Shown here one piece after another: positions 35,845-55,285 of a stretch of 64,000 nt of DNA. The stretch is from Caballeronia sp. LZ062 (GTDB lineage Bacteria > Pseudomonadota > Gammaproteobacteria > Burkholderiales > Burkholderiaceae). A program made the position numbers and the translations under genes. A model generated the notes under the pieces. That model was not told the DNA's origin. It saw only the letters and a program-made list of their open reading frames with translations, and searched no databases. The stretch is from assembly GCF_031450785.1 (NCBI RefSeq), contig NZ_JARTWB010000003.1, positions 186,001-250,000 of the forward strand. The letters are read 5' to 3'. How positions within the stretch are numbered: position 1 is the first letter of the stretch; each line of letters begins with the position of its first letter.

Positions 35845-36048
35845 GCGCCCTCCGCTATTACGTAGTACACCGAATCTATAAGTGCATTGCTCAAGGATAG
35901 AACGCGATAGTAAGAATGCAATATGCGCGCAAGCTGGTTCTCGGAACGGGTGTGCGGTTATATGAACGGCGAGCCGTTGTCGCGCAACCTGAAAACTCAA
36001 CAAGAAGGCGGCGCCGTCGGGTAGCCGGGCGTTGCTTCCTATGGACAA

Positions 36049-37194: not shown

Positions 37195-40100
37195 ATGCGG
37201 TCCTTGTATATCTGCCATCACCGCGGAAACCGGCCCTGGGCGCTCGCGATGTTCCACCATCTGGAGCGGCTCGGCTATGACGTCGTCTTCGACTTTCTCG
37301 ATGTCGCCGCCGACCGGTACGAAAGCATCGCGCGCACGCACATTCAGGACTGCACGCACTTCGTTGTCCTGCTGACGCCATCGGCGCTCGCCGACCGCAC
37401 GAAGCCCGGCGACAGGCTGCGCCGCGAGATCGAAACCGCAATCGATGCCCGATGCCACTTCCTGCCGCTCGTGATGGGCGGCTGCCCACTCGACGCGCAC
37501 ACGGGCAAGCTCGGGAAAGTCGCGCAATACGAGCCTCTCGTGATCGACGCGGCCCGCTTCGACGATGCGATGACGGAACTGCACCGCCGATGCCAGCACT
37601 ACCAGCCTCGCGACGCCTGGCGGAAACCGCCGCCCGCCGACGCCATCGACGCGGCGCGCGAGGCCGCGCTGAACGAACAAGCCGCTGCGCGTTCGGCGCG
37701 CCCCGTCGCCGCCGATGCGCTCGCTGCGCAGCAGTGCTTCGAGCGAGGCATGTCGGCGGCGGCCATCGACGAGAAACTGAGCTGCTACGGCGAAGCGGTC
37801 CGTCTCGATCCGTTTTATGCGCTCGCCTTTCGGGAACGCGCGCATGTACGCCTGGCGCAAGGCGACATCGATGCGGCGCTGCACGACTATGACGCCGCGT
37901 TGCGCAATCATCCCGACGATCTGGCGAGTTGTCTCGGCCGTGGCCGCGCACGTGAAGCGAAAGGCGACCTGGACGGCGCGCTGCTCGACTTTCGCCGCGC
38001 GGCGGAGATCGGGCGCGGCTGCGTCGAGGCGCACGTCGCGCTGGGTATCGTGCGCGGGGCGAACGGCGACCTGGATGGCGCCATCGTCGATCTGAGCCGC
38101 GCGTTGCGGCTCGCACCGGAAGAAGCCGGCACGTATCGAGAGCGGGGACGCGTGCGCGCGAGGAAGGGCGATGTCGACGGCGCGCTGCGCGATCTCGACC
38201 GCGCGATCCGCCTGCAACCCGCCTGCGCGGACGCTCATCGGCTCAGAGGCGAAGTTCGCGCCCGCTGCGGTGAAACACGCGGCGCGCTGCTCGACTACGA
38301 CCACGCGCTGCGCCTGCAACCGGCCTTCGCCGAAGCGCGGATGGAGCGCGGCTGTCTGCGTCGCCAGTCAGGCGATATCGCGGGCGCGCTCAGGGACTTC
38401 GGCGACATCATCCGGTCGACGCCGGGCAGCGCGGACGCGTACGTCGAATCGGGCGTCACCCGTGCGGGCGCAGGCGAACTGGACGGCGCGTTGCGGGACT
38501 TCGATCGCGCCGTCGGCATCGACGGTCGTCACGCACGCGCATTGTGCGAACGCGGCATGGTCCGCGCACGTAAAGGCGACGCCGATGGCGCGCTGCACGA
38601 CTTCTGCTCCGTGCTCGAGTTGCAGCCCGACCACGCGCGGGCCTATTGCGGCCGCGCCAAGGTGCGGTGCGCCAATGGGGACAGCGACGGCGCCCTGAAC
38701 GATTACGACGCGTGCCTGCGCATCGAGCCGGGCAACATCGATGCGCGTCTGGCGGGCGGCCGCCTGCGGCTGGAACGCGGCGACTCCGATGCCGCCATCG
38801 CGGACTTCGATGCGGCGATCGTCGCGCAGCCGGAAAATGCCGACGCGTACATCGGACGAGGCGACGCGCTTAAAGCGAAGGGCGACTGGCAAGCCGCCGT
38901 GGGAGACTTGAGCGTTGCGATCCGGCTGCGCCCAGCCGACGCCCGCGCCTTCGGGCGCCGGGGCAACCTGCGGGCGAAACTCGGAGAGATCGAAAGCGCG
39001 CTCGACGATCTGGAAAGTGCGATCCGCCTCGCTCCCGACGACGCCGCCGCGCATCACGACCGGGGCGTCGTGCGCGTGCAGAACGGCGATTTCGACGGCG
39101 CCCTGTGCGATTTCGACACCGCGATACGCTTGCGGCCGGACGACGCCGTCGCGCACAACAACCGGGCCAACGTGCTTTGCGACAAGGGCGACATCGACGC
39201 GGCGTTGCGCGATTACGGCGTTGCCGTGCGGCTCGATCCGGGCTACGCCGTCGCCTGGCTGAACCGTGGCAACGCGCGCCGCGAAAAAGGTGATGTGGGC
39301 GGCGCGGTGAGCGACCTCGACGAAGCGATCCGCATCGATCCCGTCTGGGCCGAAGCCTACGGCTTGCGCGCACAGTTGCGGCTTGCGATGAACGACGCGG
39401 GTGCCGCGCTGCGCGATCTCGACGAGGCGATCCGCCTGGAACCGGGGCGCGCATCGGCTTATGTGCTGCGGTCCGCCTTGCGCGCCGACAGTGAGGACAT
39501 GTCGGGCGCGCTCGCGGACCTCGACGAAGCCATCCGCGTCCGGCCGCACTTCGCCAACGCTTACGCCGCGCGGGGCCTGCTGCTCGCGCGAAACGGAGAC
39601 AGGCGAGGCGCGCTGCGCGACTTCGACGAAGCCGTCCGCCAGGACCCCGACGATGCGGACGCCTTCCACCAGCGGGCGAACTTGCGCAGCGACGACGGCG
39701 ACATCGACGGCGCTTTCAACGACTACAACCGCGCCATTCAACTGGCGCCGGATACGGTCGGCATTCGTGTGGACCGCGGCGCGGCGCGCGGACGCGCCGG
39801 CGACTTTGCCGGCGCCATGGAGGACCTCGACCGGGCAATCGGTCTCGCGCCCGACTGCGTCGAGGCGCACGTCAACCGCGGGATCGTCCGGATGGCGATG
39901 AACCGGGTCGACGCTGCGCTCCAAGACTTCGACGCAGCGCTTCGCCTGCAGCCCGGCCTCGCCACCGCGTGCTACAACCGCAGCGTCGCGCGCACGAGAA
40001 AAGGCGACGCCGACGGCGCGCTTGCCGACCTTAACGAGGCCATCGCGCTCGCGCCCGCGTTTGCCGCCGCGCGCAACGACCGGGGCGTGATCCGGGCGGC

Positions 40101-40953
40101 CAGGGGCGACGTGTCCGGCGCGCTACGCGACTTCGACGAGGCGATCCGCTTCGACCCCGCGCAAGTGAACGCGCACGTCAATCGCGGCAATCTCCGCCGC
40201 ACGAACGGTGACCTCGATGGCGCGCTCGGCGACTTCGACCGGGCGATCGAACTCGCGCCCGATCACGCCGCCGCGTATGCGAGCCGCGGCGTGTCGCGAA
40301 TCGGAGCCGGCGACCTCGCCGGCGCGCTCTCGGACTACGACGAAGCGATACGCCTCGATCCCGACTACGCCGACGCTTACGCCCGCCGCGCGAAGGCACG
40401 CTACCGCAACGGCGACGCTGCCGGCGCGCTGCGCGATCTCGACGAAGCCATTCGCCTTGCACCGGAACACGCCGATGCGCTGAACGATCGCGGCGCCGTG
40501 CGCCTCGAACACCGCGATGCGGACGGTGCGCTGCGCGATCTGCATGAGGCAATCCGCCTGCAGCCCGCTCATGCGGATGCCTTCAACAACCGTGGCGTCG
40601 TCCGTCGCGCACTGGGCGACGCGGATGGCGCGCTGCGCGATTTCGACGAGGCGATCCGCCTCGCTCCCGGCGATGCGCTCGCGCATGACAATCGGGCGCT
40701 GGCCCGTCGCGACCGGGGCGAAATCGGAGGCGCCTTGCGCGATCTCGGCGAAGCGGCCCGTCTGCGCTCGCATCGTGCCGCATCGAAGGCCGGTGCCAGT
40801 GGCGCGGGCATCGCGTCGTGGCCCGGACTTCTTGCGCCCGACGCGCGGCCGGAGCGCGCGGGGCTTGATGCGAGAGCCGGTGAACAGCGCATCGCGGTGG
40901 AAGACTGCCGCCGCTATCTGCGGCTTCTCGCCTCGATGCATGGCGGACGATGA
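37195..40953 (+). CDS. TIR domain plus ~30 tandem TPR repeats, giant protein
   Basis: A 1252-aa protein. Residues ~1-100 form a TIR-like domain: RSLYICHHRGNRPWALAMFHHLERLGYDVVFDF, DCTHFVVLLTPSALADR and RLRREIETAIDARCHFLPLVM, where Glu78 sits at the place of the catalytic Glu of TIR NADases. After an Ala-rich linker, residues ~183-1200 are about 30 uninterrupted 34-residue TPR units of the pattern GDLDGALRDFDEAIRLAPxxA, with almost no length variation. The array should form a long superhelix binding a protein partner. TIR proteins act in host manipulation or in anti-phage NAD depletion; neither is shown here. No partner gene lies next to it. The ATG at 37195 follows GGAG; the frame from 37042 lacks a site. 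Confidence 0.9.
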   Translation: MRSLYICHHRGNRPWALAMFHHLERLGYDVVFDFLDVAADRYESIARTHIQDCTHFVVLLTPSALADRTKPGDRLRREIETAIDARCHFLPLVMGGCPLDAHTGKLGKVAQYEPLVIDAARFDDAMTELHRRCQHYQPRDAWRKPPPADAIDAAREAALNEQAAARSARPVAADALAAQQCFERGMSAAAIDEKLSCYGEAVRLDPFYALAFRERAHVRLAQGDIDAALHDYDAALRNHPDDLASCLGRGRAREAKGDLDGALLDFRRAAEIGRGCVEAHVALGIVRGANGDLDGAIVDLSRALRLAPEEAGTYRERGRVRARKGDVDGALRDLDRAIRLQPACADAHRLRGEVRARCGETRGALLDYDHALRLQPAFAEARMERGCLRRQSGDIAGALRDFGDIIRSTPGSADAYVESGVTRAGAGELDGALRDFDRAVGIDGRHARALCERGMVRARKGDADGALHDFCSVLELQPDHARAYCGRAKVRCANGDSDGALNDYDACLRIEPGNIDARLAGGRLRLERGDSDAAIADFDAAIVAQPENADAYIGRGDALKAKGDWQAAVGDLSVAIRLRPADARAFGRRGNLRAKLGEIESALDDLESAIRLAPDDAAAHHDRGVVRVQNGDFDGALCDFDTAIRLRPDDAVAHNNRANVLCDKGDIDAALRDYGVAVRLDPGYAVAWLNRGNARREKGDVGGAVSDLDEAIRIDPVWAEAYGLRAQLRLAMNDAGAALRDLDEAIRLEPGRASAYVLRSALRADSEDMSGALADLDEAIRVRPHFANAYAARGLLLARNGDRRGALRDFDEAVRQDPDDADAFHQRANLRSDDGDIDGAFNDYNRAIQLAPDTVGIRVDRGAARGRAGDFAGAMEDLDRAIGLAPDCVEAHVNRGIVRMAMNRVDAALQDFDAALRLQPGLATACYNRSVARTRKGDADGALADLNEAIALAPAFAAARNDRGVIRAARGDVSGALRDFDEAIRFDPAQVNAHVNRGNLRRTNGDLDGALGDFDRAIELAPDHAAAYASRGVSRIGAGDLAGALSDYDEAIRLDPDYADAYARRAKARYRNGDAAGALRDLDEAIRLAPEHADALNDRGAVRLEHRDADGALRDLHEAIRLQPAHADAFNNRGVVRRALGDADGALRDFDEAIRLAPGDALAHDNRALARRDRGEIGGALRDLGEAARLRSHRAASKAGASGAGIASWPGLLAPDARPERAGLDARAGEQRIAVEDCRRYLRLLASMHGGR
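37741..40794 (+). repeat. 102-bp periodic coding repeat (TPR array)
   Basis: The gene carries about 30 units of 102 bp, each encoding one 34-residue TPR. Units are degenerate in sequence but strictly constant in length, which indicates expansion by in-frame duplication under selection on the helix pair. Recurrent bases encode the GALRDFDEAIRL consensus. Confidence 0.85.
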
Positions 40954-41028: not shown

Positions 41029-43149
41029 TCAGACCGGCCCCGGGTCGCTCGTCGATGGCGCTCCCGTTTCGAGATGCCCCGCGTATCGCCTGACGAAGCC
41101 CTCAAAGTCGATCGACGCGACGCTCAGGTCATACCATCCCGCGCGCTTCGATATGTCCCATCTGTCGTCGAACGTCTCGCCCGGAGCCAGGCTTATCTCG
41201 CGGGCGGGCGCGGTGTCGTAAGCATTGGCGACGCTCAGCCGGCACGGCGCGCGCCCTGCATTCGAGAGACGCAGCGTGCCGACCGACGCCCTCGGATCGA
41301 GCGTCAGGCTGGCTTCGGGAAGCGCATCGCGAGCGGCCGAGCCATGGAATTCGAACAGGCTGCCGTTCGGACCGTAAACGGACAGACCGTAGCGGCCCTC
41401 GGTATCGTGCAGCGTCCAGAAGTCGGCGAAATTGTCGCCGGCGGACATGGTGTACCGGCGCGGCGCGGAATCCACGCGCACACGGTCGTAGACGTAGAAC
41501 GCGACGCCGACCCGGCTCTCGTTGCGGAAGTCGAGCACGAAGCGGCCATCGGAGAGGCGGCCCTTCATCATCAGCGCGTACGGCAGTGGCCGAAGAGGCC
41601 GTGTGCCTCGCTCGCAACCCGGCATCGCCTGCTGATGCGGCACCGCGATGGTCGCGCCTTCCGAGCCCATGCGCGCGACGGGTCCGAGTGCGCCTATCGC
41701 CGTATCCGGCTCCGCAGTGAAGTCGAAGGCCGATGTCAGGTCACCGCACACCGCCCTGCGCCACGCGCTGATGTTCGGCTCCCGCACGCCGAAGCGCGCC
41801 TCCATGAACTGCAGTACCGACGTGTGATCGAACACCTGCGAACACACCCAGCCGCCCTTCGTCCACGGCGATACCACGATCATCGGCACGCGCGGCCCGA
41901 GGCCGATGGGCTGCCGCCCGCCGGGATCGGCGTTCGGCACGAGCGGCGTCTTGTGCCACGGATACTCGTCGAGATCGATGATCTCGTCGCCGAGGCTATC
42001 GACGAGCTGGCGCGACACCAGCCCGCCGCCGCCCTGCCTGCTCGCGAGCGGGGGCATCGGCGGAACGACGTGATCGAACAGGCCGTCGTTCTCGTCGTAG
42101 TTGATGAAGAGCACGGTGCTGCCCCACACCTTCGGGTTGGACGTCAGCGCCTCCAGGACGCGATCGATGTAGTAGGCGCCATCGGCCGGGCAGCCGTTCG
42201 GATGCTCGCAATACATCTTCGGCGCGACCACCCAGGAGACCGCAGGCAGGCGGTTGTCGTCGACATCGCGCTGAAACTCGAGGAGCGTGTGCCGCGACGC
42301 GCCCTTCAGCACGAGCGACGCCGGCGCGTCATGCGCAACCTGGAAACGCTGAAAGAACTCGAGCGAGTTGTTCGTGTAGTTGTCGGTCGGATCGCCGGGA
42401 AGGCCCGTGCCTCCCTGATACACCTTCCATTCGATGCCGGCCGCCTCCAGCCGCTCCGCGTAGGTCGTCCAGCCATAAGGGTCGCTGGCGTCGCGTTCGC
42501 TGAAGCCTGGGCCGCTGCGCAGCGGCCCGAGCCGGTTGCGCGCGTCGATCGTGCCCGTGAAGAGCATCAGGCGGTTGGGCGCGGTATCGGCGTGGACCGA
42601 GCAGAAGTAGGCATCGCAGAGCGTGAAAGCGTCGGCGAGCGCGTAGTGATAGCGCAGGTCCGCGCGCCGCAGGTAGGCCATCGTCAGCGGGTCCTGCTTC
42701 TGGTGGACCCACGCATCGTAACGTCCCTCGTTCCACGCGAGATGACCCGTGCTCCAGCTATGGTCGGTGCCAGGCGTGAACTCGGTCGTCGCCTTCGAAT
42801 CGAGATGGAATGGCAGCACATACGCGGCATCGACCGGCAAGCCCCGGTGACGGTATTCCTTCGTGAACACCGATGCGCCCGGCTGATACCACACCGGCCG
42901 TCCGTTGGCGAGCATGAGCGGCCGCGGATCGCCGAAGCCGCGCACGCCGTGCAGCGTACCGAAGTAGTGATCGAAGGACCGGTTCTCCTGCATGAGGACC
43001 ACGACATGGCTCACGTCCCTGATCGTGCCGGTGCGGCCGGTCGCGGGCAGCGTGAGCGCTGCGTGGATGGACGGGGCGAGCGGCGCGAGCAGCGCACCCG
43101 CGCACGCCGACATCGCGCGTAGAAACTGTCTCCGGGTCGTGGCGGTCAT
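41029..43149 (-). CDS. Tat-exported phospholipase C (PlcN/AcpA type)
   Basis: A 706-aa enzyme of the phosphoesterase family that includes nonhaemolytic phospholipase C and acid phosphatase AcpA. TTRRQFLRAM is the twin-arginine signal. The metal/nucleophile region is VVLMQENRSFDHYFGTLHGVRGF, with FINYDENDGLFDHVVPP and the PMIVVSPWTKGG block later, and two C-terminal DUF756-like beta domains (about 500-700). It cleaves phosphatidylcholine or phosphatidylethanolamine outside the cytoplasm. The start is the ATG at 43149; a GTG three codons earlier is possible, and frame upstream overlaps the BcsR-like gene. It lies 11 nt behind that gene at the end of the bcs operon, which is unusual. Confidence 0.88.
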   Translation of the reverse strand: MTATTRRQFLRAMSACAGALLAPLAPSIHAALTLPATGRTGTIRDVSHVVVLMQENRSFDHYFGTLHGVRGFGDPRPLMLANGRPVWYQPGASVFTKEYRHRGLPVDAAYVLPFHLDSKATTEFTPGTDHSWSTGHLAWNEGRYDAWVHQKQDPLTMAYLRRADLRYHYALADAFTLCDAYFCSVHADTAPNRLMLFTGTIDARNRLGPLRSGPGFSERDASDPYGWTTYAERLEAAGIEWKVYQGGTGLPGDPTDNYTNNSLEFFQRFQVAHDAPASLVLKGASRHTLLEFQRDVDDNRLPAVSWVVAPKMYCEHPNGCPADGAYYIDRVLEALTSNPKVWGSTVLFINYDENDGLFDHVVPPMPPLASRQGGGGLVSRQLVDSLGDEIIDLDEYPWHKTPLVPNADPGGRQPIGLGPRVPMIVVSPWTKGGWVCSQVFDHTSVLQFMEARFGVREPNISAWRRAVCGDLTSAFDFTAEPDTAIGALGPVARMGSEGATIAVPHQQAMPGCERGTRPLRPLPYALMMKGRLSDGRFVLDFRNESRVGVAFYVYDRVRVDSAPRRYTMSAGDNFADFWTLHDTEGRYGLSVYGPNGSLFEFHGSAARDALPEASLTLDPRASVGTLRLSNAGRAPCRLSVANAYDTAPAREISLAPGETFDDRWDISKRAGWYDLSVASIDFEGFVRRYAGHLETGAPSTSDPGPV

Positions 43150-43160
43150 CGCGTTCACCG

Positions 43161-43364
43161 TCAGGGTATCGGGCGATGCTCCGCCGCCGGGGCCGCGAGG
43201 CCCAGCAACCGTGCAAGCGCCGGGCAGCGCCGCCAAGCCGTTTCGTAGGCGCGCGCGGCTTCGTCCTCGTAATAAGTCCGCGGGTCGAGGCCCGGCAGAC
43301 GTTGCGCGAGGCCGCTCACGTCGTTCACCGGCCAGTCTTCGCCTTGATTCGCGGAATCGGTCAT
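43161..43364 (-). CDS. BcsR-like small protein of the cellulose operon
   Basis: A 67-aa protein containing NDVSGLAQRLPGLDPRTYYEDEAARAYETAWRRCPALARLLG. It follows the pattern of the enterobacterial cellulose protein BcsR (Asp-Val/Ile, Leu, an LP-x-LD/ID stretch, Tyr, then Arg-x-Cys/Trp-Pro-x-Leu-Ala), which stabilises the cellulose synthase complex. The ATG overlaps the bcsG stop (ATGA), so the 43364 start is preferred over a second ATG at 43379. In enterobacteria bcsR sits before bcsQ; here it follows bcsG. The homology is weak and only by eye, so the name is provisional. Confidence 0.5.
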   Translation of the reverse strand: MTDSANQGEDWPVNDVSGLAQRLPGLDPRTYYEDEAARAYETAWRRCPALARLLGLAAPAAEHRPIP

Positions 43365-44944
43365 TGTTGGTCCACCCATACGCCATCCGGCGTGCGGACG
43401 GAGTATCCGGCCGCCGTGCCGATCGTCACGGTTTGCTCGTTTTCGCCGACCATGCGCGTGCGCGGCAGGTTCGCGGCATAGTCGGGTAGGGTCGCGCCCG
43501 GCTGGAACGGGCTGCGCGCGACGAGATTCGAGAGCAGTTGCGCGAGCGCGAGAAAGCTCGAAGGCTGCGTGATGACCGTCGCGGGCGGATGCGCCCCGCC
43601 GAACCCGACGAGGCGGATGCCCACCGGACCATGCACGATATGCGGCGTGGGCACTTCGCGCAGCCCCGCGATCTGGTCCTTGTCGCCCGCCAGCGCCGCG
43701 CCGTGCTCCGGCACGAAGACGATCGCCGCACGCCGTCCCGAACTCGCGACGAGATCGGCAAAGCGGTCGAAATCGGTCATGAGCTTCTGCACGCGCCGGG
43801 GATAAGTCTCCAGGCTCGAACCGGGGATGCCCGGCAGGCGGTTGCCGTCGTGCAGGCTGATCGTGTTGTAGTAGAGCGCGACCGGTCCCTGCACCCGCCC
43901 GCGCTGCGCTAACCAGCCGGCGAGCGTGCCGTAGTCCTCGCGAATCGGAGAATCGTCGAACGAGCGCATCTGGACCGGCGCGGCGCCGTTCGGCTGGAAA
44001 GGCACGTTAGCCGCGCCGACATTGCGCGCCACGGTCGACGCGAAGTCGCCGAAGTGGCCGTCGTGATTCAGCAGCACTTGCGGCGTGTAGCCGGCGCGGG
44101 CGAGCGCGCTCAGCAGATAGCAGTCGGCGTCGGCCGCTTCGTAGAGCTTCTGGTGAGGCTCCTGTCCGCACGCCGCGCGCAGCACGCGCACGGCCGCCGG
44201 GCCGCTGTAGCTCGCCGCGGTGCTGAAGTTCGTGAAGACGTAATCGAAGTGGCTCAACATCGGATGATCGCGCGACTTGGCGACATCCAGATCGTTCCAC
44301 GACAGCGAGCAAATATGCAGCAGGATGATGTCGAACTGCGCGTTGGCATCGCTCGTGAGATGCGCGAAGCTCACGCGGCGTTTCGCCTCGTCCGTGCGGA
44401 ACGCGGCGAGCTCTGCATCGTGGCCGGACGCGCCCGTCTGACCCGGCGCGTTGCCCGCGCGCACCGCCAGCGACAGCGCCGCAGGCGAGGTGCCCGCAGG
44501 CGAAACCGCATTGCCCGGCAACTGGATCGCACGGCCGAGTTCATAGACCGGCGCTGTGATGAGCGCGGCGATCACGAGCGTCGACACGCGCAGCCAGCGA
44601 TTCACCACGAGATATCCGACGACCGCGCAGATACCCGTCAGCAGGAGCGCCGGCGGCAAGACGCGCTGCGCGAGCTCGTACCAATAGCCGGCACTGAAAT
44701 GCAGCATCGCGCTGAACTCGCTGACGAGCCGCGAGAAAGGCGGCACTTTCGCTTCGGTGTACATGAGCGGCAGCGCAATCGCGAGCGCCACGAGCAAGCG
44801 CGCAAGACGCGCAAGGTACGCGCGCCAGAAGGACGTCGCGCCGAGCGCGAGCGCGAACGCGAGATTGGCAAGCCATAGCGGGCTGAGATGGCCGGTCGCC
44901 CACAGGTACAGCTTGAGGATGAAGTAGAGGTTCCAGAAAGTCAT
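43361..44944 (-). CDS. bcsG: BcsG: cellulose phosphoethanolamine transferase
   Basis: A 527-aa inner-membrane protein with four to five N-terminal transmembrane helices (FWNLYFILKLYLWATG, SPLWLANLAFALALG and later) and a periplasmic alkaline-phosphatase-like domain. The nucleophile region is FSTAASYSGPAAVRVLRAACGQ, and zinc-ligand segments are visible as IILLHICSLSWND, YYNTISLHDGNR and FVPEHGAALAGD. BcsG adds phosphoethanolamine to cellulose in the periplasm, taken from phosphatidylethanolamine. It is 28 nt after bcsA. Length is slightly below the 559 aa of E. coli BcsG. The ATG at 44944 precedes the first membrane helix; upstream frame belongs to bcsA. Confidence 0.88.
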   Translation of the reverse strand: MTFWNLYFILKLYLWATGHLSPLWLANLAFALALGATSFWRAYLARLARLLVALAIALPLMYTEAKVPPFSRLVSEFSAMLHFSAGYWYELAQRVLPPALLLTGICAVVGYLVVNRWLRVSTLVIAALITAPVYELGRAIQLPGNAVSPAGTSPAALSLAVRAGNAPGQTGASGHDAELAAFRTDEAKRRVSFAHLTSDANAQFDIILLHICSLSWNDLDVAKSRDHPMLSHFDYVFTNFSTAASYSGPAAVRVLRAACGQEPHQKLYEAADADCYLLSALARAGYTPQVLLNHDGHFGDFASTVARNVGAANVPFQPNGAAPVQMRSFDDSPIREDYGTLAGWLAQRGRVQGPVALYYNTISLHDGNRLPGIPGSSLETYPRRVQKLMTDFDRFADLVASSGRRAAIVFVPEHGAALAGDKDQIAGLREVPTPHIVHGPVGIRLVGFGGAHPPATVITQPSSFLALAQLLSNLVARSPFQPGATLPDYAANLPRTRMVGENEQTVTIGTAAGYSVRTPDGVWVDQQ

Positions 44945-44972
44945 CGCTTCTTCCTCCGCACATCGGTCCGGC

Positions 44973-47516
44973 TCACGACCGGGCCCTGGCTGCTTCGACC
45001 CAGGCCCGCGCCGCGCGTGCCGCGTCGCGTCCGAGCCGGCCATAGCCGCGCACGCCGACCTGCACGACATCGCGCAGTCCGCGCAACGGCTTGTCGGCGA
45101 GTTCGGCGTCATGCCATTTGATCCACGCATCCGCGCGGCCGAGCGTCAACTGCACGAGCCGCCGCTCCGCTTCGAGATCGAGACCTTCGAGCTTCACGCC
45201 GAGCTCCCGGCCTGTCTGCCAGACGGAGCGCACCCGGAAGCTGAACTCCTGATCGAGACGCCGCACGCAGACCGACATCGGCTCGCCGGGCGCGAAGCGC
45301 TGTCCATCGGGCAGCGTGAGGCCGAAGCCGCCCAGCGAGCAGTCGCGGGTCGTGCAGGCGATCGAATGGCCGTCGGCGAGCATCAGCATGGCGGGCAGGC
45401 GCATCGGGATGCGCTGGGTGGCGCGCGTTTGCCTCGCCTCGCGCGCCACGCATAGCGCGCCGCCAAGCAGCACGAGGTTATACGTCGTCCACAGCATGTT
45501 CATCAGGACGGTCGGCGCTTCGTAGGCATCGCCCGCAACGAGCGAATAGCAGCCGACCGCGAGGCCCAGCGCGTTCAGCGTGACGAGCAGAATGTAGGGT
45601 CGTGAGACGGCCCAGTCGAAATAGCCCTGATCGATGCGTCCACCCTTGTCGGTGACGTTGAACTTGCCGTGTTTCGGGCTGAGCACGGCGATGGTCGTCG
45701 GCAGCGCGACATACCATGCGAGCACCGATTCGTAGACCTCGGCCCAGAACGAATGCCGGAAGCTGCCCTGCAGCCGCGAGTTCGCGACGTTCGCCAGCGC
45801 GATATAAGGCATCACATACGCGACGATCGCGAGCGCGGGTGCGTGGATGAAATGCATGTGGAAGAAGAGATAGGCCATCGGCATCGTCAGGAAGATCAGA
45901 CGTGGGATGCCGTAGAAAAAATGCAGCATCGCATTGCCGTAGCAGAGCCGTTGGAACGCGGTGAGGCCGCGCCCGAGAAACGGATTGTCGATGCGGAAAA
46001 TCTGCGCCATGCCGCGCGCCCATCGCACCCGCTGGCGGATGTGGCTCGCGAGGCTCTCGGTGGCGAGACCCGCTGCCTGCACCGTCGGCAGATACGCGGT
46101 CGTGTAGCCGCGCCGATGCAGCTTGAGCGCCGTATGTGCGTCCTCCGTCACGGTCTCGACCGCCACGCCACCCACTTCCACGAGCGCGCTGCGCCGGATG
46201 ACCGCGCACGATCCGCAGAAGAACGACGCGTTCCACAGATCGTTGCCCGCCTGCACGAGTCCATAGAACAGATAGCCTTCATTCGGGACGCGGTGGAACG
46301 TCGAGAGGTTGCGCTCGAACGGGTCCGGCGAGAAAAAATGATGCGGCGTCTGCACCATCGCGCATTTCGGTTCGCGCAGGAAAGTGCCCATCGTCGTCTG
46401 CAGGAACGAGCGCGCAGGGACATGGTCGCAATCGAAGATGGCGATGTATTCCCCGTGCGTGCGCTCGAGCGCGCGGTTGATGTTGCCCGCCTTCGCGTGG
46501 CGATTGTCTTCGCGCACGAGATATTCGATGCCCGCCTGCTCGGCGAACGCGCGAAATTCGGGACGCCGGCCGTCGTCGAGCAGATAGACGCGCAGCTTGT
46601 CCGCCGGCCAGTCGATGCCCTGCGCGGCGAGCACGGTCGGGCGCACGACCGAAAGCGGTTCGTTGTACGTCGGAATGTAGACATCGACGGTCGGCCATGC
46701 CGCCGGATTCACGGGCATCGGCACGATCGCGCGCTCGAGCGGCCAGGCCGTCTGCACGAAGCCGAATAGCTGAATCAGCCAGGTGTACGCTTCCGCGCCG
46801 AAAAGCGCATAGCCGACGAGGGTGTCGCCCGGCGAACGGAAGTCGAGCGTCGTGGTTGCGCGCCAGTAGGCGTAGCGCGCGGTCATCAGCAGCGCCATGG
46901 ACGACAGCAGCAACAGCGGCACGCGGCCAGGCATGCGCCGGATGACGAGCGATGCGGCGAGCGACGTGGCGCCGAACTGCAACTGCGCAGTCGTCGACAG
47001 CGACGCGGTGCTCGCGAGCACGAAGAGCGCGCCGCCCAGCAGCATGACGACCGGCAGCATCGGCCACCAGCGCCCCACGACGCCGCTCGCGCTCTCGAGC
47101 CCGGCGGCGAGCGGCACCCACGGCAGCCGGGCGATGGCGGCATCGAGCCGGCGCTGCTGGCGGCGCGCGAACGCGGTGGTGCGGCGCAGAGCGACCGCGG
47201 TTCCGACGACGATCGCGCGCAGCGAGGCGGCCGCCCCGCCCGGGGGAGCCGGCCTGACGAACGCGCGCCACAGCCACAGACGCAGCGGCGCGCGCGCGGC
47301 AAGCTGCCAGTCACCCGCGAGCAGCGCAACAAAGCGGGCGATCAGCAGCTGCGGCACGTCTTTACGGCCAGCGCGCGGCGCATGGAACAGCAGCCGCACG
47401 AACCAGTCGATGCGCGTGCGCGTATCGGCGACGCCCAGACGCGGCGCGAGCCAGTCGGCGAGGCGCGAGCGTGCCGGCGTGCGTGCGGGTTTGCCGAAGT
47501 CGCGGTTCGAGGCCAT
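44973..47516 (-). CDS. bcsA: BcsA: cellulose synthase catalytic subunit (UDP-forming)
   Basis: A 847-aa integral membrane glycosyltransferase. After N-terminal helices the GT2 domain has YIPTYNEP, LLDDGRR, the FDCDHVPA (DxD) motif, TVTEDAHTA (TED) and RQRVRWARG (QxxRW). A C-terminal PilZ domain follows with IPMRLPAM and DCSLGGFGL, which binds cyclic di-GMP to open the gate. It makes beta-1,4-glucan from UDP-glucose and pairs with BcsB. The gene lies 6 nt after bcsQ. All catalytic residues seem intact, so the synthase should be active when c-di-GMP is high. Confidence 0.95.
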   Translation of the reverse strand: MASNRDFGKPARTPARSRLADWLAPRLGVADTRTRIDWFVRLLFHAPRAGRKDVPQLLIARFVALLAGDWQLAARAPLRLWLWRAFVRPAPPGGAAASLRAIVVGTAVALRRTTAFARRQQRRLDAAIARLPWVPLAAGLESASGVVGRWWPMLPVVMLLGGALFVLASTASLSTTAQLQFGATSLAASLVIRRMPGRVPLLLLSSMALLMTARYAYWRATTTLDFRSPGDTLVGYALFGAEAYTWLIQLFGFVQTAWPLERAIVPMPVNPAAWPTVDVYIPTYNEPLSVVRPTVLAAQGIDWPADKLRVYLLDDGRRPEFRAFAEQAGIEYLVREDNRHAKAGNINRALERTHGEYIAIFDCDHVPARSFLQTTMGTFLREPKCAMVQTPHHFFSPDPFERNLSTFHRVPNEGYLFYGLVQAGNDLWNASFFCGSCAVIRRSALVEVGGVAVETVTEDAHTALKLHRRGYTTAYLPTVQAAGLATESLASHIRQRVRWARGMAQIFRIDNPFLGRGLTAFQRLCYGNAMLHFFYGIPRLIFLTMPMAYLFFHMHFIHAPALAIVAYVMPYIALANVANSRLQGSFRHSFWAEVYESVLAWYVALPTTIAVLSPKHGKFNVTDKGGRIDQGYFDWAVSRPYILLVTLNALGLAVGCYSLVAGDAYEAPTVLMNMLWTTYNLVLLGGALCVAREARQTRATQRIPMRLPAMLMLADGHSIACTTRDCSLGGFGLTLPDGQRFAPGEPMSVCVRRLDQEFSFRVRSVWQTGRELGVKLEGLDLEAERRLVQLTLGRADAWIKWHDAELADKPLRGLRDVVQVGVRGYGRLGRDAARAARAWVEAARARS

Positions 47517-47522
47517 GTCGTC

Positions 47523-48284
47523 TCAGTCCGTCCGGCCGCGCCCGGACAGCCAGCCATCGAGCCAGCGGGCGAGACCATGCAAATCGTGGGAAATCTGAGC
47601 GTCGGGCGCGGTGTCGAACACCCATCCGCCGCGGGCGAACGCGTCCGGCAGCGCCGCATCGCGATGCAGCCGCTGAGGCAGGATCGCGCCGTCGCCGACG
47701 CGCGCCCGCAGCAAGGCCAGCACATCGCGATGCGTCTCATGCGTTGGATGTAACTGATTGACGACGATCTGAAACGCCCTGCCCGGCCGCCGCAGCTGAT
47801 CGACGGCCGCGCCCAGCGACACGCATCCCGCCGGCTCGGGCGTCGTCACGCAGAGCACCAGGTCGGCGGCACGCAATGCCTGTTCGGCCTGCTGCGACGG
47901 GTAGCGCGCCGTATCGATCAGGACGGCGGCGCCGGGCCGCCGCTCGATATCGGCGAGCGCGCCCGCGAGCCAGTCCGGCAGCGCGGCGAACGCGGATTCG
48001 CTCGCGCCGATCTGGTCCGCGTCGAGCGCGCCGTATGGCACGAACATCACGCCGTCCTCGTTGCGGAACGACTCGGCGTGCCAGTCGCTCGAATCGAGCA
48101 GCGCGTGGACGAGCCCGCGCGGCGCGAGTGTCTCCAGCCCGAGATACGCGCCGAGAATGTTCTGCGCATCCAGTTCGATTGCGAAGACCTGACGGGACCG
48201 GCGCGCGAGCAGCACCGCGAGCGCGCTGCAGACCGTCGTCCGCCCCGCGCCGCCCGATGTCGAGACGACTGCGATCACGGTCAT
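47523..48284 (-). CDS. bcsQ: BcsQ: MinD-like ATPase of the cellulose operon
   Basis: A 253-aa ParA/MinD-type ATPase beginning MTVIAVVSTSGGAGRTTVCSALAVLLARR; its Walker A is GGAGRTT, so the usual second Lys is Arg. LIDTARY and CVTTPEPAG resemble the switch and base-binding parts. BcsQ localises the synthase at a cell pole and is needed for cellulose output. The ATG at 48284 shares one base with the bcsF stop; the frame open upstream overlaps bcsF. The C-terminus is close to the next gene, bcsA. Whether it hydrolyses ATP with this P-loop cannot be told. Confidence 0.9.
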   Translation of the reverse strand: MTVIAVVSTSGGAGRTTVCSALAVLLARRSRQVFAIELDAQNILGAYLGLETLAPRGLVHALLDSSDWHAESFRNEDGVMFVPYGALDADQIGASESAFAALPDWLAGALADIERRPGAAVLIDTARYPSQQAEQALRAADLVLCVTTPEPAGCVSLGAAVDQLRRPGRAFQIVVNQLHPTHETHRDVLALLRARVGDGAILPQRLHRDAALPDAFARGGWVFDTAPDAQISHDLHGLARWLDGWLSGRGRTD

Positions 48285-48472
48285 CACGCGGTCCCGTCCG
48301 GCGGCCCGCTTTCGCCGCCGTCCGCGCCTACGAGCCGCGTGTCCCTGACGACGCGTTCGAGCCGCAGTCGCGGCTGCGGCGCGTTCTGCATTCGCTTGCG
48401 ATGCCCGATCAGACAAAGCGGTATCGCCATGGCGACACCCGCGCCGACGCATGCGGCGAGCATTCCGATCAT
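48284..48472 (-). CDS. bcsF: BcsF: small membrane protein
   Basis: A 62-aa protein with one N-terminal membrane helix (MLAACVGAGVAMAIPLCLIG) followed by a basic stretch HRKRMQ and a hydrophilic tail. This matches BcsF in size and topology (about 63 aa), which anchors BcsE near the synthase. It overlaps the bcsE stop with ATGA and ends one base before bcsQ. The sequence is poorly conserved in the family, so the name depends on order and topology. Confidence 0.75.
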   Translation of the reverse strand: MIGMLAACVGAGVAMAIPLCLIGHRKRMQNAPQPRLRLERVVRDTRLVGADGGESGPPDGTA

Positions 48473-50268
48473 GCGCCCACCTCGCGCCGGATCGGCAGTG
48501 CGCATCGCTGCGCGTGAGGGCGCGTTGCCGGGCCGTCTTCCGTTCGCCCCTTCACCGCGACGGGCGCCCGGTGCAGCGCGCGGGCCGGCGCGTTCTCGAC
48601 CGGCGTCAGGCGCGGGAGGGACGCGGGCGCTACCGGCAGCACATCGCTGTAGTCGGGCGCCTGCGTGTGCCGGGCGTGCTCGCGCATCACGTCGAGCCGA
48701 TGCACGATCCCGCTTCCCACATACAGCTTGCGGTCGGAGAAGAGTTCCGCGCCGGGCGCATCGAGCAACGGGCCGAGTCGATCGTGCGCCTCGGGCGGCT
48801 CGCACGCGAAGAGAAACACATAGACGTGCGTGGCATCGACGGTCGCAATCCGCCCCGGCTGCCGCGAGAGCGTGGCGCACAGGGCGTCGAGATGCGAGAC
48901 GTCGTCACGCACGGTCAACTCCACCAGCACATGCGGCAGCGCCAGCATGTGCCCGCGTTGCAGTACCGCGGCGACACGATCGCAGAAGCCCGCGAGCGGC
49001 GCATAGCCAGATAGCGCGTCAGGCTGCGCGGCGGCGAGCGCGGCGGCGGGATCATCGACGATCGGGCCTGTGTGCAGATGCCCCTGCAGCGAGCGCAGCG
49101 CCAGCGACAACCGGGAGAACGGCAGATCGCGGGGAAGCACCGCGTCCGCACCGACCCGAAGCAGCAGCAACTCGTGATGAAGGCCGATGCCGTGCCCCCG
49201 CAGTGCGACCGCGATTTTCAGCGCGCCGCCGCGCCGCTTGCGCAGCGAGTGGATCATCGCGCACAGGTCCGCAAGCGGCGTGTCCGGGTCCAGCGCGAAG
49301 ACGATGGACGCGGCGTGAGCGTCACGGCATGCCGCGAACACCGCTGCATTGTCCGCGTAGGGTTCCCAGTCGGCGGGCAGCCAGGCTTCTGCGCCGACGA
49401 GCGAACGCGTGACGACCACGCGCTCTGCGTCGGCTGCGGAAAGTCTCGCCGGGATGCGGCCGTGGGACGGCGGCTCCAGTTCCGCGACGAGCGCGCCCGA
49501 CGCGTTTAGCCGCAAGGCGCACGTCTCGTTGGCGGCGAGCGTCTGCCCGGTCCGCCAGAAGTCGACGTGCCAGCGCAATTCGCCCGCAAGCTCGCCCATG
49601 CGCGCGACGCCGGCAAAGCGCATGTGCAGCGTGCCGGATGTCTCGAACGGATTGGCCGGCGACATCGGCGGCCGGGCGAGATCCGTCTCTACCGGCTCGG
49701 CGCGGAAGATGAGCAGCAGCGAGACGCGGCGCTTCGCGCACCAGCGCGCGAGGAAATCGCCTTCCCGGCTCAGAGCGGCCGGGTCGTCCCATGTGAACCA
49801 GCGCTCCGCGCCCTCGATGATCGACAGGGAACGCGAGCGCAAGCCGCGCCGCACGAGCGCGCGCAGCGCGACGCGCAGCGGCACACCGCTCTCCTCGTCA
49901 GGCAGCGCCAGCACGTTGAGGTAACGCGGCCAGCCGGGCGCGCGTTCGTCGGCGGACAATCCGCGCGCGCGCAACTGCGCCGCGACTTCATCGCGCGGCA
50001 GCGCGCGCACAACCGTGACGTGCTCGCTACCGCCCTCGCGCGCCGTGTCCCAGATCAGCGCATCGCAGGCGCGCGTGCCGGGCGTCGTATAGAGGCCGTG
50101 TACCGCCCCGGGGGCGAACGCCGCCCATTTCTCCGGCAGCCCGTCGATGGCGAGACGTGGCGCATGGCGCCCGCGCGGCGCACGTCGCACCGAGGCGCGC
50201 AAACCGGCCAGCCATCGCGCCGGGCCCCTGGTCGTTCCGCCGAAACTGGCGAAGGTCGCGTCGTTCAT
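48469..50268 (-). CDS. bcsE: BcsE: cyclic-di-GMP-binding cellulose regulator
   Basis: A 599-aa cytoplasmic protein that carries the GIL-type domain of BcsE in its last third (about residues 340-500), with the VGADAVLPRDLPFSRLSLALRSLQG block and the C-terminal degenerate GGDEF-like part ending HDRLGPLLDAPG. BcsE binds c-di-GMP and boosts BcsA output, assisted by BcsF. AGGGAGAGGAGC in front of the ATG is a strong ribosome site. It lies 30 nt after bcsC. The N-terminal ~220 residues look like a NTPase-like inactive domain. Confidence 0.85.
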   Translation of the reverse strand: MNDATFASFGGTTRGPARWLAGLRASVRRAPRGRHAPRLAIDGLPEKWAAFAPGAVHGLYTTPGTRACDALIWDTAREGGSEHVTVVRALPRDEVAAQLRARGLSADERAPGWPRYLNVLALPDEESGVPLRVALRALVRRGLRSRSLSIIEGAERWFTWDDPAALSREGDFLARWCAKRRVSLLLIFRAEPVETDLARPPMSPANPFETSGTLHMRFAGVARMGELAGELRWHVDFWRTGQTLAANETCALRLNASGALVAELEPPSHGRIPARLSAADAERVVVTRSLVGAEAWLPADWEPYADNAAVFAACRDAHAASIVFALDPDTPLADLCAMIHSLRKRRGGALKIAVALRGHGIGLHHELLLLRVGADAVLPRDLPFSRLSLALRSLQGHLHTGPIVDDPAAALAAAQPDALSGYAPLAGFCDRVAAVLQRGHMLALPHVLVELTVRDDVSHLDALCATLSRQPGRIATVDATHVYVFLFACEPPEAHDRLGPLLDAPGAELFSDRKLYVGSGIVHRLDVMREHARHTQAPDYSDVLPVAPASLPRLTPVENAPARALHRAPVAVKGRTEDGPATRPHAQRCALPIRREVGA

Positions 50269-50298
50269 GCTCCTCTCCCTGGTTCTTTGAAGTTTTCT

Positions 50299-53200
50299 TC
50301 AGTAGCTCGAATAGAGGCGAACCGGGCGCGTCTGCAGACTCGTATCGCCTTTGCGGCCGTCGAAGTCGTAGCGCACGTAGATCATGGCCGCGCTCGGCAT
50401 GTAGTCGTGCGAATGTTCGATCGACAGCCGCACGCCCGCGACGAGCTTCGGATTGAACCGGTATTCCAGCACGCCGCGAAACGCATACGAGAAGCCGCCG
50501 CCCGACCCGCCCTTGAACACGTTGTTGGCGCCCTCCTGCACGTTCGCCGACGCAGGCAGCCCGATCGGGAAGTACGCAGAGTCGCGTTCGTAGGTCCACG
50601 ACATGCCCGCGACTGCCTCGACGTCCCACGTAAAAGCGTCGCGGCGTCCGGTCCATTCGACCGGCACGCCGAGCGCCAGATAACGCTGCGGGCTGTAGTA
50701 GCCGCCCTGTCCGTAGGTGTAAAAGCGCAGGTTGTTCGTGTAATGCCAGATGTTGCCGACAAGACCGGTCGACACGCGCATGTCCGGGCGCTCGTAGACC
50801 GGCACGTCGAAGCCCACGCGGGCCGTCACTTCCTGATTGGTCTTGACGTTGTGCCCCGTCAGCACGGCCCCGCCGATGCTCGCGAACAGATTGATCTTTC
50901 CGATGTCGACTGAGCCGCGCACATCGAGACCGTCGCGGCGCACGCCGCCCCACACGGCCCCTGTGACCGGATCGCGCGTGCCCGCGTAGGAAAGCTCGCT
51001 GCCCGTTTCGGGACGGCGCGACGCGCTGACGGTGAGGCTCGCCCTGTCGGTCTCGAAGCGGTACCGAAGGCCGGCGACAACATACTGGACAGGAAACCCG
51101 AGCGGCGTCGTGCCGAGGTCGAAGCGCCAGGCATCGGACTGATAACCCGCACCGATTGCGACGCCGAACGCGCGCTGATGCACCGACGCGGCGAGCGGCG
51201 TGCCGTCCGTACGCGCCGCGAAAGTGCCGAAGGTGTTGCGGGTATAACTGTCGACGTCCGGGTTTTGCAGCGTGCCGGCATCCAGCTGCACCGTATCGAC
51301 ATGCGCGAAGAGATGCCCCGCATAACCGAGCGGCATCTGGCCGTACACGGGAACCTGCTGCGCGCGATACCGGGAAATGCCGTCATCGCCCGACTTGTAG
51401 GCGAACAGGAAACCCGCTTCCACGTCCGGTTCGCGGCGCGCTTCGAGCTGGTCCAGCGCGCGCTGCGCGGGCGACGTGCCGCGGTTGGCCGCGAGGCCCG
51501 ACGCCGTTTCCTGCGCGATCGCCGTCTTGTAGAGCGAAGCCGCTTCTTCGAACTCATAGGAGCGCTGCGCGAGACGGCCCGCCTGCACCGTCACGTCAGG
51601 CCGTTCGGGATACTCCTCGCGCAAGCCCGCCGCGACTGCGCGCGCTTCGTCGGTCTCTTGCAGCGACGCGAGCCGCCGCACGGCGCCGAGCCGCGTGTCG
51701 ACATCGTCCGGCTGCGCTTGCGAGAGCACGCGGCGCGTCATCGTCAGCGCCTCGGTGCGTTCGCCGCTGTCTTCCAGCACGCGAGCGAGCGCGAGCTGCG
51801 CGTCCGCATCGTCCGGAGCCTTTGCGAGCACGGGCTCGAGCTGCGCGCGCGCCGCCGCCAGGTTGCCCTGCCTGCGCTCGACTTCAGCGAGTTCCAGCGT
51901 GTAACGGCGGTCTGTCCGTCCTGCCGGACTCACGGACGCGAGAACCTTGCGGGCGCGCTCGTAATCCGCGTTGTCGAGCGCTTCGTCGGTTTGCCGCAGT
52001 GCGAGCCGCAGCGCCTGATCCTCCAGGCGCGCGAGCTGGCGCTTGTTCAGCCCGCCGCGCTCCCGCAGCGCATACAGCCACGCCTGCAGTTCGCGGTCGC
52101 GGTGAGCACTGCCGAGCAAATCGCCGTAGCGCAAACGGATATCCGCGCCGGCTGCATCGGCATGGGCGTCGATCCAGTCGCGCAGCAACACGACGCCCGT
52201 ATCGGGCTCTCCCTGCTCGATGTACGCCGCGCCGACCGATGCGAGCAGATACGGGTCGGCTCCGGCCTTGTCGCGGGCCTCCGCGAGCGCGGCGGCGGCG
52301 CGCTCGCGCTCGCCGTGCGACGCCGCCTCACGCGACGTTTCGAGCGCCTCGTGGACATCGAGCTTGCGCACCAGTTCGCGCATACCGTCGGTGCGCTCGC
52401 TCTCCGGCAATGGCTCGATGAGCGCCCTTGCGGTGCGGACGTCGTCGAGCGAGTTGTCGTAAAGCGCGGCGGCGTAGCGCATGGAAGGCGCCTGGCTCGC
52501 CGCGAGCCCATCTTCCATCACGCGGCGGCCGAGGTCGGGCGAGCCGAGATCGCGATAGAGCCGCGCGAGCGCGAAGCGCGTCCAGGCCGCGTCGGGGTCG
52601 AGCCTGATCGCGGCTTCGTATTGATCGGCGGCCGGACCTTCCCGGCCATCGGCGTGAAAGCGCTCGGCCTGCTTCACGAGCATTTCGGCGCGCATCTGCG
52701 CGAGCGCGTGCTTGTCTTTCGCGGACGGGACGCGGCGTTGCAGCGAGTCGAAGAGCGCGTCCAGTTCGGCGGCGCGGCCGGTGCGCTCGTACACCGTGCG
52801 CAGCGGCGCGACCGCATCGAGGTTCGGCTTGCGAGCGGCCAGCAGACCGCGCAAGAGAGGCTCCGCGTCGCTCCATCGCTGTTGCGCAACGAGCGCGTTG
52901 GCCAGCAACAGGCGCGCATCTTCGTTCTTCGGCTGGATGCGCAGGGCGGCGCGGGCTGCGCGCTCCGCGTCGGCGGCCCGGCCGTTGGCCAGCGCCTCGC
53001 GGCTTTTGGCAAGCGCGCCCCACAGTTCGGTCGTGCGGGCGAGCCCGATCCACTTGCTGCGATTGTCCGGCGCGTGTTCCGCCGCGCGGATGAACAGCGC
53101 GTGGGCCGCGTCCTGATCGCCGGTGCGCAAGCGCAGCAGTCCGAGGCCGCCGACCGCGTCCGGATCGTCCGGACGCGCCGCCGCCGCGCGCGCCAGCAGC

Positions 53201-54114
53201 GGCTCCGCGCGGGCGAGATCGCCCTGGGCGAGTGCGGCGAGTCCATGCTGGCGCGCGATGTAGGCGGGATCGTGCTCGAGGCGCTGCTGGGCATCGACGG
53301 CCGTTTCGAGTCCGGCAAGGCGCTCTCGCATCTGATCGTCGTCGGGGACCATTTCGACATACGCGCGCAGCGAAGGAAGGAACGCGGGGTCGTCCGATCC
53401 CGCCTTCAGCACGCGTCGCCACACGTCGAGCGATACGTCGCGGTTCACGTCGTCGCGTCCGACGAGACCATGCGCGATCCGCTCGGCCTCCGGCCGCGTC
53501 GCCCGCTCGTTCAGAAGCACCGAAAGCACGAGCGCCGCGTCGACGTCGTTCGGATCGGCCGCCAATGCGCGGCGCAGCGCGGCGATCGCCTGCGGCCTGC
53601 CGGCGTCCGTCGCGCCGAGGATCTTGTTGTACTCCGCGCCGAGCGGGCCATCCGGCGCGCCGTTAGGAAAGAACGCCTTCAGGCGGCGCACGGCTTCGTC
53701 CGCGCGGCCACTGCGTGCAAGCAGGCGGATGCCGGCCATTTCCTGCCGGCCCGTGGTCGCAACGCGATATTCCTCCTGAATGCAGCGCGTCTCACGGGCA
53801 TCCGGCGAGCGCTTCTGCAGGCCATCGAGAATGGCCTTGGCAGACTCCGGCTGGCCGAGCCGCAACAAGATGCGGATCTCTTCGGCGAGCAGCATCGGAT
53901 CTTCCGGCGCGATCAGCAGCGCCTTTTGCAGCTGCGACAGCGCCAGATCATCGCGATGCTTCGCCGCCCACATCCGCGACATGTCGTAGAAGCGCCCGGC
54001 ATCCTCGGGCAACGCGGCAGGCGGCGATGCGCCCGCCGCCCGGCCCGCGCCCGGCGCGAGCAGCAAGGCAGCGACCGCACCGCCGAAGGCGCCCTGTTTC
54101 ACCGCGGCGTGCAT
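50299..54114 (-). CDS. bcsC: BcsC: outer-membrane cellulose export protein with TPRs
   Basis: A 1271-aa protein with a signal peptide (GGAVAALLLAPGAGRAAG), a long periplasmic TPR part (about residues 40-900) and a C-terminal BCSC_C barrel of ~340 residues (from EARREPDVEAGFLFAYKSGD) ending in a terminal aromatic LYSSY. It moves the glucan strand across the outer membrane. GGAG six bases before the ATG at 54114 supports this start; an ATG at 54126 is the alternative. Either way it overlaps the 3' end of bcsZ, as is common in bcs operons. Length is slightly above E. coli BcsC. Confidence 0.92.
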   Translation of the reverse strand: MHAAVKQGAFGGAVAALLLAPGAGRAAGASPPAALPEDAGRFYDMSRMWAAKHRDDLALSQLQKALLIAPEDPMLLAEEIRILLRLGQPESAKAILDGLQKRSPDARETRCIQEEYRVATTGRQEMAGIRLLARSGRADEAVRRLKAFFPNGAPDGPLGAEYNKILGATDAGRPQAIAALRRALAADPNDVDAALVLSVLLNERATRPEAERIAHGLVGRDDVNRDVSLDVWRRVLKAGSDDPAFLPSLRAYVEMVPDDDQMRERLAGLETAVDAQQRLEHDPAYIARQHGLAALAQGDLARAEPLLARAAAARPDDPDAVGGLGLLRLRTGDQDAAHALFIRAAEHAPDNRSKWIGLARTTELWGALAKSREALANGRAADAERAARAALRIQPKNEDARLLLANALVAQQRWSDAEPLLRGLLAARKPNLDAVAPLRTVYERTGRAAELDALFDSLQRRVPSAKDKHALAQMRAEMLVKQAERFHADGREGPAADQYEAAIRLDPDAAWTRFALARLYRDLGSPDLGRRVMEDGLAASQAPSMRYAAALYDNSLDDVRTARALIEPLPESERTDGMRELVRKLDVHEALETSREAASHGERERAAAALAEARDKAGADPYLLASVGAAYIEQGEPDTGVVLLRDWIDAHADAAGADIRLRYGDLLGSAHRDRELQAWLYALRERGGLNKRQLARLEDQALRLALRQTDEALDNADYERARKVLASVSPAGRTDRRYTLELAEVERRQGNLAAARAQLEPVLAKAPDDADAQLALARVLEDSGERTEALTMTRRVLSQAQPDDVDTRLGAVRRLASLQETDEARAVAAGLREEYPERPDVTVQAGRLAQRSYEFEEAASLYKTAIAQETASGLAANRGTSPAQRALDQLEARREPDVEAGFLFAYKSGDDGISRYRAQQVPVYGQMPLGYAGHLFAHVDTVQLDAGTLQNPDVDSYTRNTFGTFAARTDGTPLAASVHQRAFGVAIGAGYQSDAWRFDLGTTPLGFPVQYVVAGLRYRFETDRASLTVSASRRPETGSELSYAGTRDPVTGAVWGGVRRDGLDVRGSVDIGKINLFASIGGAVLTGHNVKTNQEVTARVGFDVPVYERPDMRVSTGLVGNIWHYTNNLRFYTYGQGGYYSPQRYLALGVPVEWTGRRDAFTWDVEAVAGMSWTYERDSAYFPIGLPASANVQEGANNVFKGGSGGGFSYAFRGVLEYRFNPKLVAGVRLSIEHSHDYMPSAAMIYVRYDFDGRKGDTSLQTRPVRLYSSY

Positions 54115-55283: not shown

Positions 55284-55285
55284 CG

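Follow-up and report, generated by a model that had tools for sequence, protein, structure and literature searches.

A TIR domain with altered pocket residues on a fixed array of thirty TPR units beside a cellulose–phospholipase C locus in Caballeronia

Introduction

TIR domains divide into enzymes and scaffolds, and conversion between the two is an open question. Here we analyse a gene of Caballeronia sp. LZ062 that joins an N-terminal TIR domain to a long array of tetratricopeptide repeats (TPRs). The gene lies at 37195..40953 (+ strand) of the window, the 64,000-nucleotide stretch G000:C3:186001-250000 of this 5.06-Mb genome. The closest solved counterparts of its TIR domain are those of SARM1 and C. 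elegans TIR-1, which hydrolyse nicotinamide adenine dinucleotide (NAD). SARM1 carries ARM and SAM domains, in the place of which the window protein has its TPR array. The two share Glu642, Asp594 and Asp637 (SARM1 numbering, counted along the SARM1 row of a PDB profile alignment), but differ at W638 (Arg in the window protein), Y568 (His), G601 (Asp), K628 (Asp) and C629 (Arg).

Several bacterial systems are similar in other respects. The bacterial TIR NADases AbTir and TcpC share with the window protein the TIR family and the catalytic Glu (PMC11374754), but they go unmatched at E<=1 by a profile of the family studied here and, by spacing, the equivalent of AbTir Trp204 is Arg in the window protein. 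Two further architectures are compared here by description: the actinobacterial ‘group 6’ TIR proteins (PMC7075850), which are often large and have an N-terminal TIR and C-terminal TPRs, and the bacterial TIR-NBD-TPR proteins (PMC9153377), often large as well, with an N-terminal TIR and TPRs. The former, however, are described with other box motifs and, unlike the latter, the window protein has no NTPase domain among the 25 Pfam matches listed for it. Finally, TIR-TPR proteins of Acidobacteriota, Chloroflexota, C. telluris and Variovorax share its domain order, a partly conserved linker and a related TIR, but have 0–18 repeat units as opposed to the 30–31 seen in the window protein and its orthologues from C. 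grimmiae R27 and C. arationis LMG 29324 (together, the trio). Most of these relatives also keep the Trp that the trio has lost. The window protein is unusual within its group; the TIR-TPR kind itself is known.

A survey from 2020 failed to find bacterial SARM1 homologues (PMC7075850), and a 2026 preprint places SARM1 within a mainly bacterial clade (PMC13142454). Our literature searches returned no paper joining Caballeronia with a TIR domain and, judged by title or the start of the abstract, none on bacterial SARM1-type TIR-TPR proteins; by the same criterion, the papers listed for bacterial TIR-TPR dealt with molluscs.

A SARM1-type TIR domain with altered pocket residues

The gene is a real open reading frame that encodes 1252 residues plus stop. 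We took as its start the ATG at 37195, which has a GGAG 6 nt on its 5' side, rather than the TTG at 37042 chosen by the program that listed the frames. The TIR domain spans residues 1–133 (37195..37593) and is matched over residues 5–100 by Pfam TIR_2 (E=1.8e-9; 38.5 bits against a curated cut-off of 28), which places it in the TIR superfamily. It is followed by a linker (residues 134–182; 37594..37740), which is conserved in part among TIR-TPR proteins, with A154, A157 and A158 invariant across 20 sequences. The TPR array (residues 183–1202; 37741..40800) is matched by Pfam TPR_11 in 27 stretches (E=2.3e-121), and the C-terminal tail (residues 1203–1252; 40801..40950), which lies within the least conserved region, ends in a short motif common to the window protein and its orthologues. 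An N-terminal TIR, the conserved linker residues and a C-terminal TPR array together mark the protein as a bacterial TIR-TPR protein. A preceding sequence-only reading had proposed a TIR-like domain with Glu78 as the candidate catalytic residue, followed by some thirty regular 34-residue TPRs from about residue 183 to 1200. The TIR_2 match upholds the first of these proposals, and Glu78 (codon 37426..37428) aligns with SARM1 E642. The array was described with similar accuracy: scanning with a profile of the window's own units yields 30 units, with 29 of 29 spacings exactly 34 residues, units 1 and 30 being degenerate.

When a profile of seven family TIRs was run against the PDB, all 19 distinct sequences found at E<=1 were SARM1 or TIR-1 (E 1.6e-21 to 1.9e-16). 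Going by this profile match, the window TIR is of the SARM1-type lineage; the family tree, built from 106 of 205 rows, contains no SARM1. Individual positions were compared across 214 relatives (two sets merged, 203 distinct rows). The first set of relatives was limited to proteins below about 1000 residues, so that array lengths there are bounded. The set of 78 loci has no length limit, but one of its two search patterns demands W or R and then RREIE, which biases the counts of W, R and E among the loci toward those letters.

Glu78 sits in the motif RLRREIETA, and its position holds Glu in all three orthologues and in 213 of the 214 relatives, the remaining one being a gap. The window protein thus has the catalytic Glu of a SARM1-type NADase, but it lacks the ligand-contacting Trp. 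At the W638 position all three orthologues have Arg (Arg74; codon 37414..37416 in the window). Trp occupies this position in 209 of 214 relatives and is lacking in the other five, and Arg occurs in no row outside the trio in the two relative sets checked for it. The box 1 Tyr568 and the BB-loop Gly601 are likewise replaced in the window copy, by His8 and Asp40. Tyr is present at the former position in C. grimmiae, C. arationis and 214/214 relatives; the latter is Ile in C. grimmiae and Gly in C. arationis and in 209/214 relatives. The K628 position reads Asp67 in the window, His in C. grimmiae, Gln in C. arationis and Arg in 192/214 relatives, and the C629 position Arg68, Leu, Cys and Cys (203/214), respectively. 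Position 7, Ser in 209/214 relatives, is Cys in the window; by motif and by spacing (four residues from Glu) rather than by alignment, we read Cys7 and Arg74 as the probable equivalents of AbTir S140 and W204. Across 30 TIR positions conserved in at least 95%, the window retains 17, C. grimmiae 20 and C. arationis 25, whereas C. telluris (two rows) and Variovorax retain all 30. Across these three related species, pocket residues have thus been lost in steps, with the Glu and the repeat array retained. In the SARM1-type lineage that the trio adjoins, most sampled members retain the pocket.

Mutants of SARM1 at positions including Y568, G601, K628, W638 and E642 have a kcat/Km lowered 100- to 2000-fold, and G601P, D627K, K628D and C629S are cited as rendering the protein non-functional (PMC8266388); the window carries the K628D change itself (Asp67). 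In AbTir, NADase activity is lost in S140A and W204A (PMC11374754), and a further study of W204A reports reduced activity and a changed product on NAD-RNA (PMC10937652). A search of the text of PMC10022894 for the Trp found nothing. This Glu is also common among TIR groups for which no activity has been reported (PMC7075850), and the pocket is changed. Glu78 therefore counts as weak support for NADase activity here, and the presence of the catalytic Glu is not by itself a reason to call a bacterial TIR an NADase. Going by these residues, the window TIR probably no longer performs ordinary SARM1-type NAD hydrolysis.

Is the protein instead an active NAD-consuming immune sensor, its array detecting a protein of a phage or other invader and its TIR killing or signalling by NAD cleavage? 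The presence of Glu78 in all three orthologues and the NADases SARM1 and TIR-1 as closest solved structures would fit such a role. Arg74 might then change the product, giving for example linear ADP-ribose instead of the cyclic isomer, as the Trp in AbTir is tied to the formation of a cyclic product (PMC11374754, PMC10937652). The loss of SARM1-essential residues speaks against it, as do the properties of the array.

A fixed TPR array as a possible docking surface

A single profile, derived from the repeats of the window protein itself, counts 30 units in the window, 30 in C. grimmiae and 31 in C. arationis, all spaced at exactly 34 residues. The same profile finds 0–18 units in the other TIR-TPR loci and 0–9 in 123 other proteins, most of them from the set limited to about 1000 residues (14 have none). 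Within the window array, units are on average 41% identical to one another, and Tandem Repeats Finder detected in its DNA only a 102-bp period in 2.6 copies and a 21-bp period in 1.9 copies. Between species, the best partner of a unit is mostly that of the same index: this holds for 28 of 30 units from the window to C. grimmiae, for 25 of 30 from the window to C. arationis and for 24 of 30 from C. grimmiae to C. arationis. Taken together, this index-wise pairing, the modest identity between units and the scarcity of DNA repetition indicate that the array is old and fixed; a recent repeat expansion was rejected because of the unit-by-unit orthology and the repeat-finder result.

We also compared classes of TPR positions, taking the concave, convex and consensus assignments from general TPR structure. 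Sites identical in all three species make up 40% of concave, 32% of convex and 76% of consensus positions. The concave positions are no faster than the convex ones and give no sign of a diversifying groove, which counts against an immune sensor; together with the unit-by-unit orthology, this led us to reject a hypervariable phage-sensing array.

As the ligand Trp has been lost across the clade, and the window species has lost further residues of the pocket and the BB loop, signalling would most likely proceed by TIR assembly. Tentatively, and as the reading we judge nearly an even bet, we propose a cytosolic SARM1-type TIR-TPR receptor or scaffold whose TIR signals by assembly and whose NAD cleavage, compared with that of canonical relatives, is lost, strongly reduced or directed to another product. 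In this model, the 30-unit TPR superhelix would offer one protein partner, or a few, a long docking surface of fixed form, partner binding would bring N-terminal TIR domains together, and the output would be TIR assembly or a weak or altered NAD chemistry.

Several points weigh against this proposal. That the Glu is invariant speaks for continued selection on some chemistry. TcpC remained active when its corresponding Trp was mutated (PMC11374754), so Arg74 need not abolish catalysis. Y568 and G601, both changed in the window copy, are linked in SARM1 to multimerisation, and a reading based purely on TIR assembly is weakened by this as well. Moreover, the relatives themselves do not match SARM1 at K628 (Arg in 192/214, as above) or at H640, and the SARM1 data therefore transfer only in part. 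Whichever output applies, the trio offers a natural series bearing on the role of Trp638/204 and on whether the Glu suffices alone.

The gene is under purifying selection

Nonsynonymous-to-synonymous rate ratios (Ka/Ks, Nei-Gojobori) were calculated for the three orthologue pairs; that the selection tests rest on three orthologues is a further point against our proposal. Ka/Ks is 0.28–0.32 in the TIR and 0.24–0.30 in the array, compared with 0.14–0.17 in the neighbouring phospholipase C (PLC) gene, and rises to 0.43 and 0.59 over residues 1169–1252 in the two computable pairs. The TIR-TPR gene is thus under purifying selection, about half as strongly as PLC, and at the values seen for TIR and array it is not decaying freely.

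These values bear on whether the gene could be what is left of a TIR-TPR gene gained by horizontal transfer, eroding and functionless now. The number of invariant TIR residues lost, which grows from C. arationis to the window, would suit that explanation, as would a Ka/Ks about twice that of PLC. Against it stand full-length open frames in all three species, a Ka/Ks of about 0.3 or below in both TIR and array, and repeat spacings that have stayed exactly 34 throughout, and we regard such erosion as very unlikely. A pseudogene was rejected because of the open frames and the Ka/Ks.

Distribution of the family and possible links to defence

Of 58 genomes of the genus, 4 gave a TIR match, as did 5 of 398 genomes of the family. 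Across 399 order genomes queried with the C. arationis TIR, the window was the only strong match, and the ten other matching genomes reached best E values of 9.5e-6 to 3.9e-4. The long form, 1240–1283 residues with starts chosen by us, occurs only in the trio (3 of 58 genus genomes), the TIR of C. grimmiae being 69% and that of C. arationis 57% identical to the window's. In the TIR tree the trio groups together with support of 100/92 on a long stem, separate from the other TIR-TPR relatives, and C. telluris is placed elsewhere. Outside this sample the TIR-TPR layout is frequent: 2718 of 3192 candidates matched the C. telluris TIR at E<=0.001, TPR domains are present in most of the 120 matches listed for that query, and a genome scan yielded 78 TIR-TPR loci, many of them in Chloroflexota and Acidobacteriota. 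This points to a large SARM1-like TIR-TPR family in environmental bacteria, in contrast to the outcome of the 2020 survey (PMC7075850).

Turning to defence, the patchy spread of the clade would fit an immune sensor. Around 34 of the 78 loci, we surveyed 132 near and 135 far open reading frames below 900 residues, picked by length only. Near genes of relatives matched 55 defence-model families and far genes 22, counts in which distinct proteins cannot be told apart; no family occurred in more than three members, and many models are near-duplicates (e.g. PD-T4-6, E1-E2). No PADLOC model matched over the TIR at E<=1, and none of 87 stretches of viral contigs that matched a pattern was confirmed as a relative of the clade. 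The only PADLOC match at E<=1, PrimPol at residues 760–832, was rejected, as it lies within the array and reflects TPR similarity; NCBIfam names such as PrsT, MamA and PilW, above their cut-offs, were rejected for the same reasons. No ThsA-type Thoeris partner was found among the window neighbours scanned, a part of the window's genes. Weighing both sides, we consider an active NAD-consuming sensor possible but doubtful. Of the immune NADase put forward in the sequence-only reading, the domain, the Glu, the array and the rarity in betaproteobacteria stand, the last as far as sampled (4/58 genus and 5/398 family genomes). The NAD-consuming function is weakened by the change of Trp to Arg in 3/3 orthologues and by the loss of further SARM1-essential positions.

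Some relatives and other TIR proteins deserve separate mention. In C. telluris LMG 22936, two TIR-TPR copies, both shorter and distant, lie on a contig (L008) that carries genes of plasmid type. They adjoin a resolvase as well as RepL- and VirC1/ParA-like genes, and one of the two has near-identical repeats. In Variovorax sp. J22P240 (L014:4654-11413), a 1545-residue protein with a TIR and an NPHP3_N NTPase domain is encoded just before a 504-codon TIR-TPR frame. One TIR-TPR protein (P0125) has an extra C-terminal region, residues about 600–746, after its array. A 232-residue TIR protein that lacks a TPR array, from a different genus of the family (L011:1369-3489), adjoins a protein with a Tle1-like phospholipase domain of the type VI secretion system. 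The source genome encodes a second TIR_2 protein (G000:C1:65836-66120, L112; 278-codon frame), for which the TIR-TPR searches gave no match.

Linkage to a cellulose–phospholipase C block

In the window, the TIR-TPR gene lies tail-to-tail with, and 75 bp from, a phospholipase C-type gene (PF04185 and PLipase_C_C; 41029..43386, − strand). Beyond this are bcsG, bcsA, bcsQ, bcsE, bcsC, bcsZ and bcsB (43361..57637, − strand), a cellulose block whose functional link to the TIR-TPR gene is putative, and at the far end a dgkA-type diacylglycerol kinase gene (57880..58335, + strand). The position beside a cellulose/phospholipase operon had been noted before; we confirm it and find that the bcs-PLC block borders the TIR-TPR gene in 3/3 orthologues. 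In C. grimmiae (L095) the gene adjoins PLC as in the window, and a search of the far end of the block showed no dgkA. In C. arationis, where dgkA is present, the gene lies at the opposite end of the block beside dgkA, followed by an IS110-type transposase gene. From the coordinates, we infer that a single inversion of the dgkA-bcs-PLC block separates this layout from that of the window.

These arrangements raise the possibility of a cellulose or envelope scaffold, in which the protein holds or regulates Bcs or lipid-turnover proteins and the TIR serves as an assembly domain. Besides the bordering position in all three orthologues, at either end of the block with layouts one inversion apart, the array and PLC have similar Ks (0.80/0.87/0.95 vs 0.61/0.75/0.78), so that they were probably inherited together. 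One ancestral event could, however, explain all three linkages; in the window, the gene stands outside the operon and is not co-directional with the bcs block. A related bcs-PLC operon in another genome (G030), 49–71% identical gene by gene, showed neither bcsZ nor a TIR-TPR gene in the stretch read. Of the four loci in which PLC was seen to adjoin bcsG, three thus show the link. In the remaining Caballeronia bcs loci found, bcsB is 37–54% identical, and TIR-TPR genes were absent from the flanks read of seven of them; in one locus (G040), a PLC relative with 44% identity lies some 4 kb past dgkA. On balance, we find such a scaffold improbable. Similarly improbable, in our judgement, is a more specific history in which a SARM1-type TIR became non-canonical or non-catalytic on a frozen 30-repeat TPR superhelix and was recruited to a cellulose and lipid-turnover locus. 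It would be a bacterial counterpart, arisen inside an NADase lineage, of the TIRs that serve as scaffolds in animal receptors.

The other flank of the TIR-TPR gene encodes a CHAP-domain protein, which starts with a lipoprotein-like leader, and directly downstream of it a protein with a TPS domain (two-partner-secretion type; 33547-36696). Relatives of this TPS protein occur near other bcs loci in two further genomes (G007, G039). It is the only secretion-type gene among the neighbours scanned and is on the opposite strand to the TIR-TPR gene, which bears on whether the TIR-TPR protein could be host-directed, that is, exported into plant, insect or fungal cells, where it would disturb TIR/NAD signalling. 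TIR effectors are known in plant-associated bacteria (PMC9298051). Yet a sequence scan of the window protein found no membrane-like stretch and, by the usual rule, there is no room for a signal peptide, as the first TIR strand starts within the first few residues; export into a host seems most unlikely.

The bcs locus itself (41029-58335) combines BcsG, phospholipase C and diacylglycerol kinase, and the same set is present in C. arationis. BcsG is a phosphoethanolamine transferase that acts on cellulose, and the phospholipase C and diacylglycerol kinase could recycle the diacylglycerol that it leaves.

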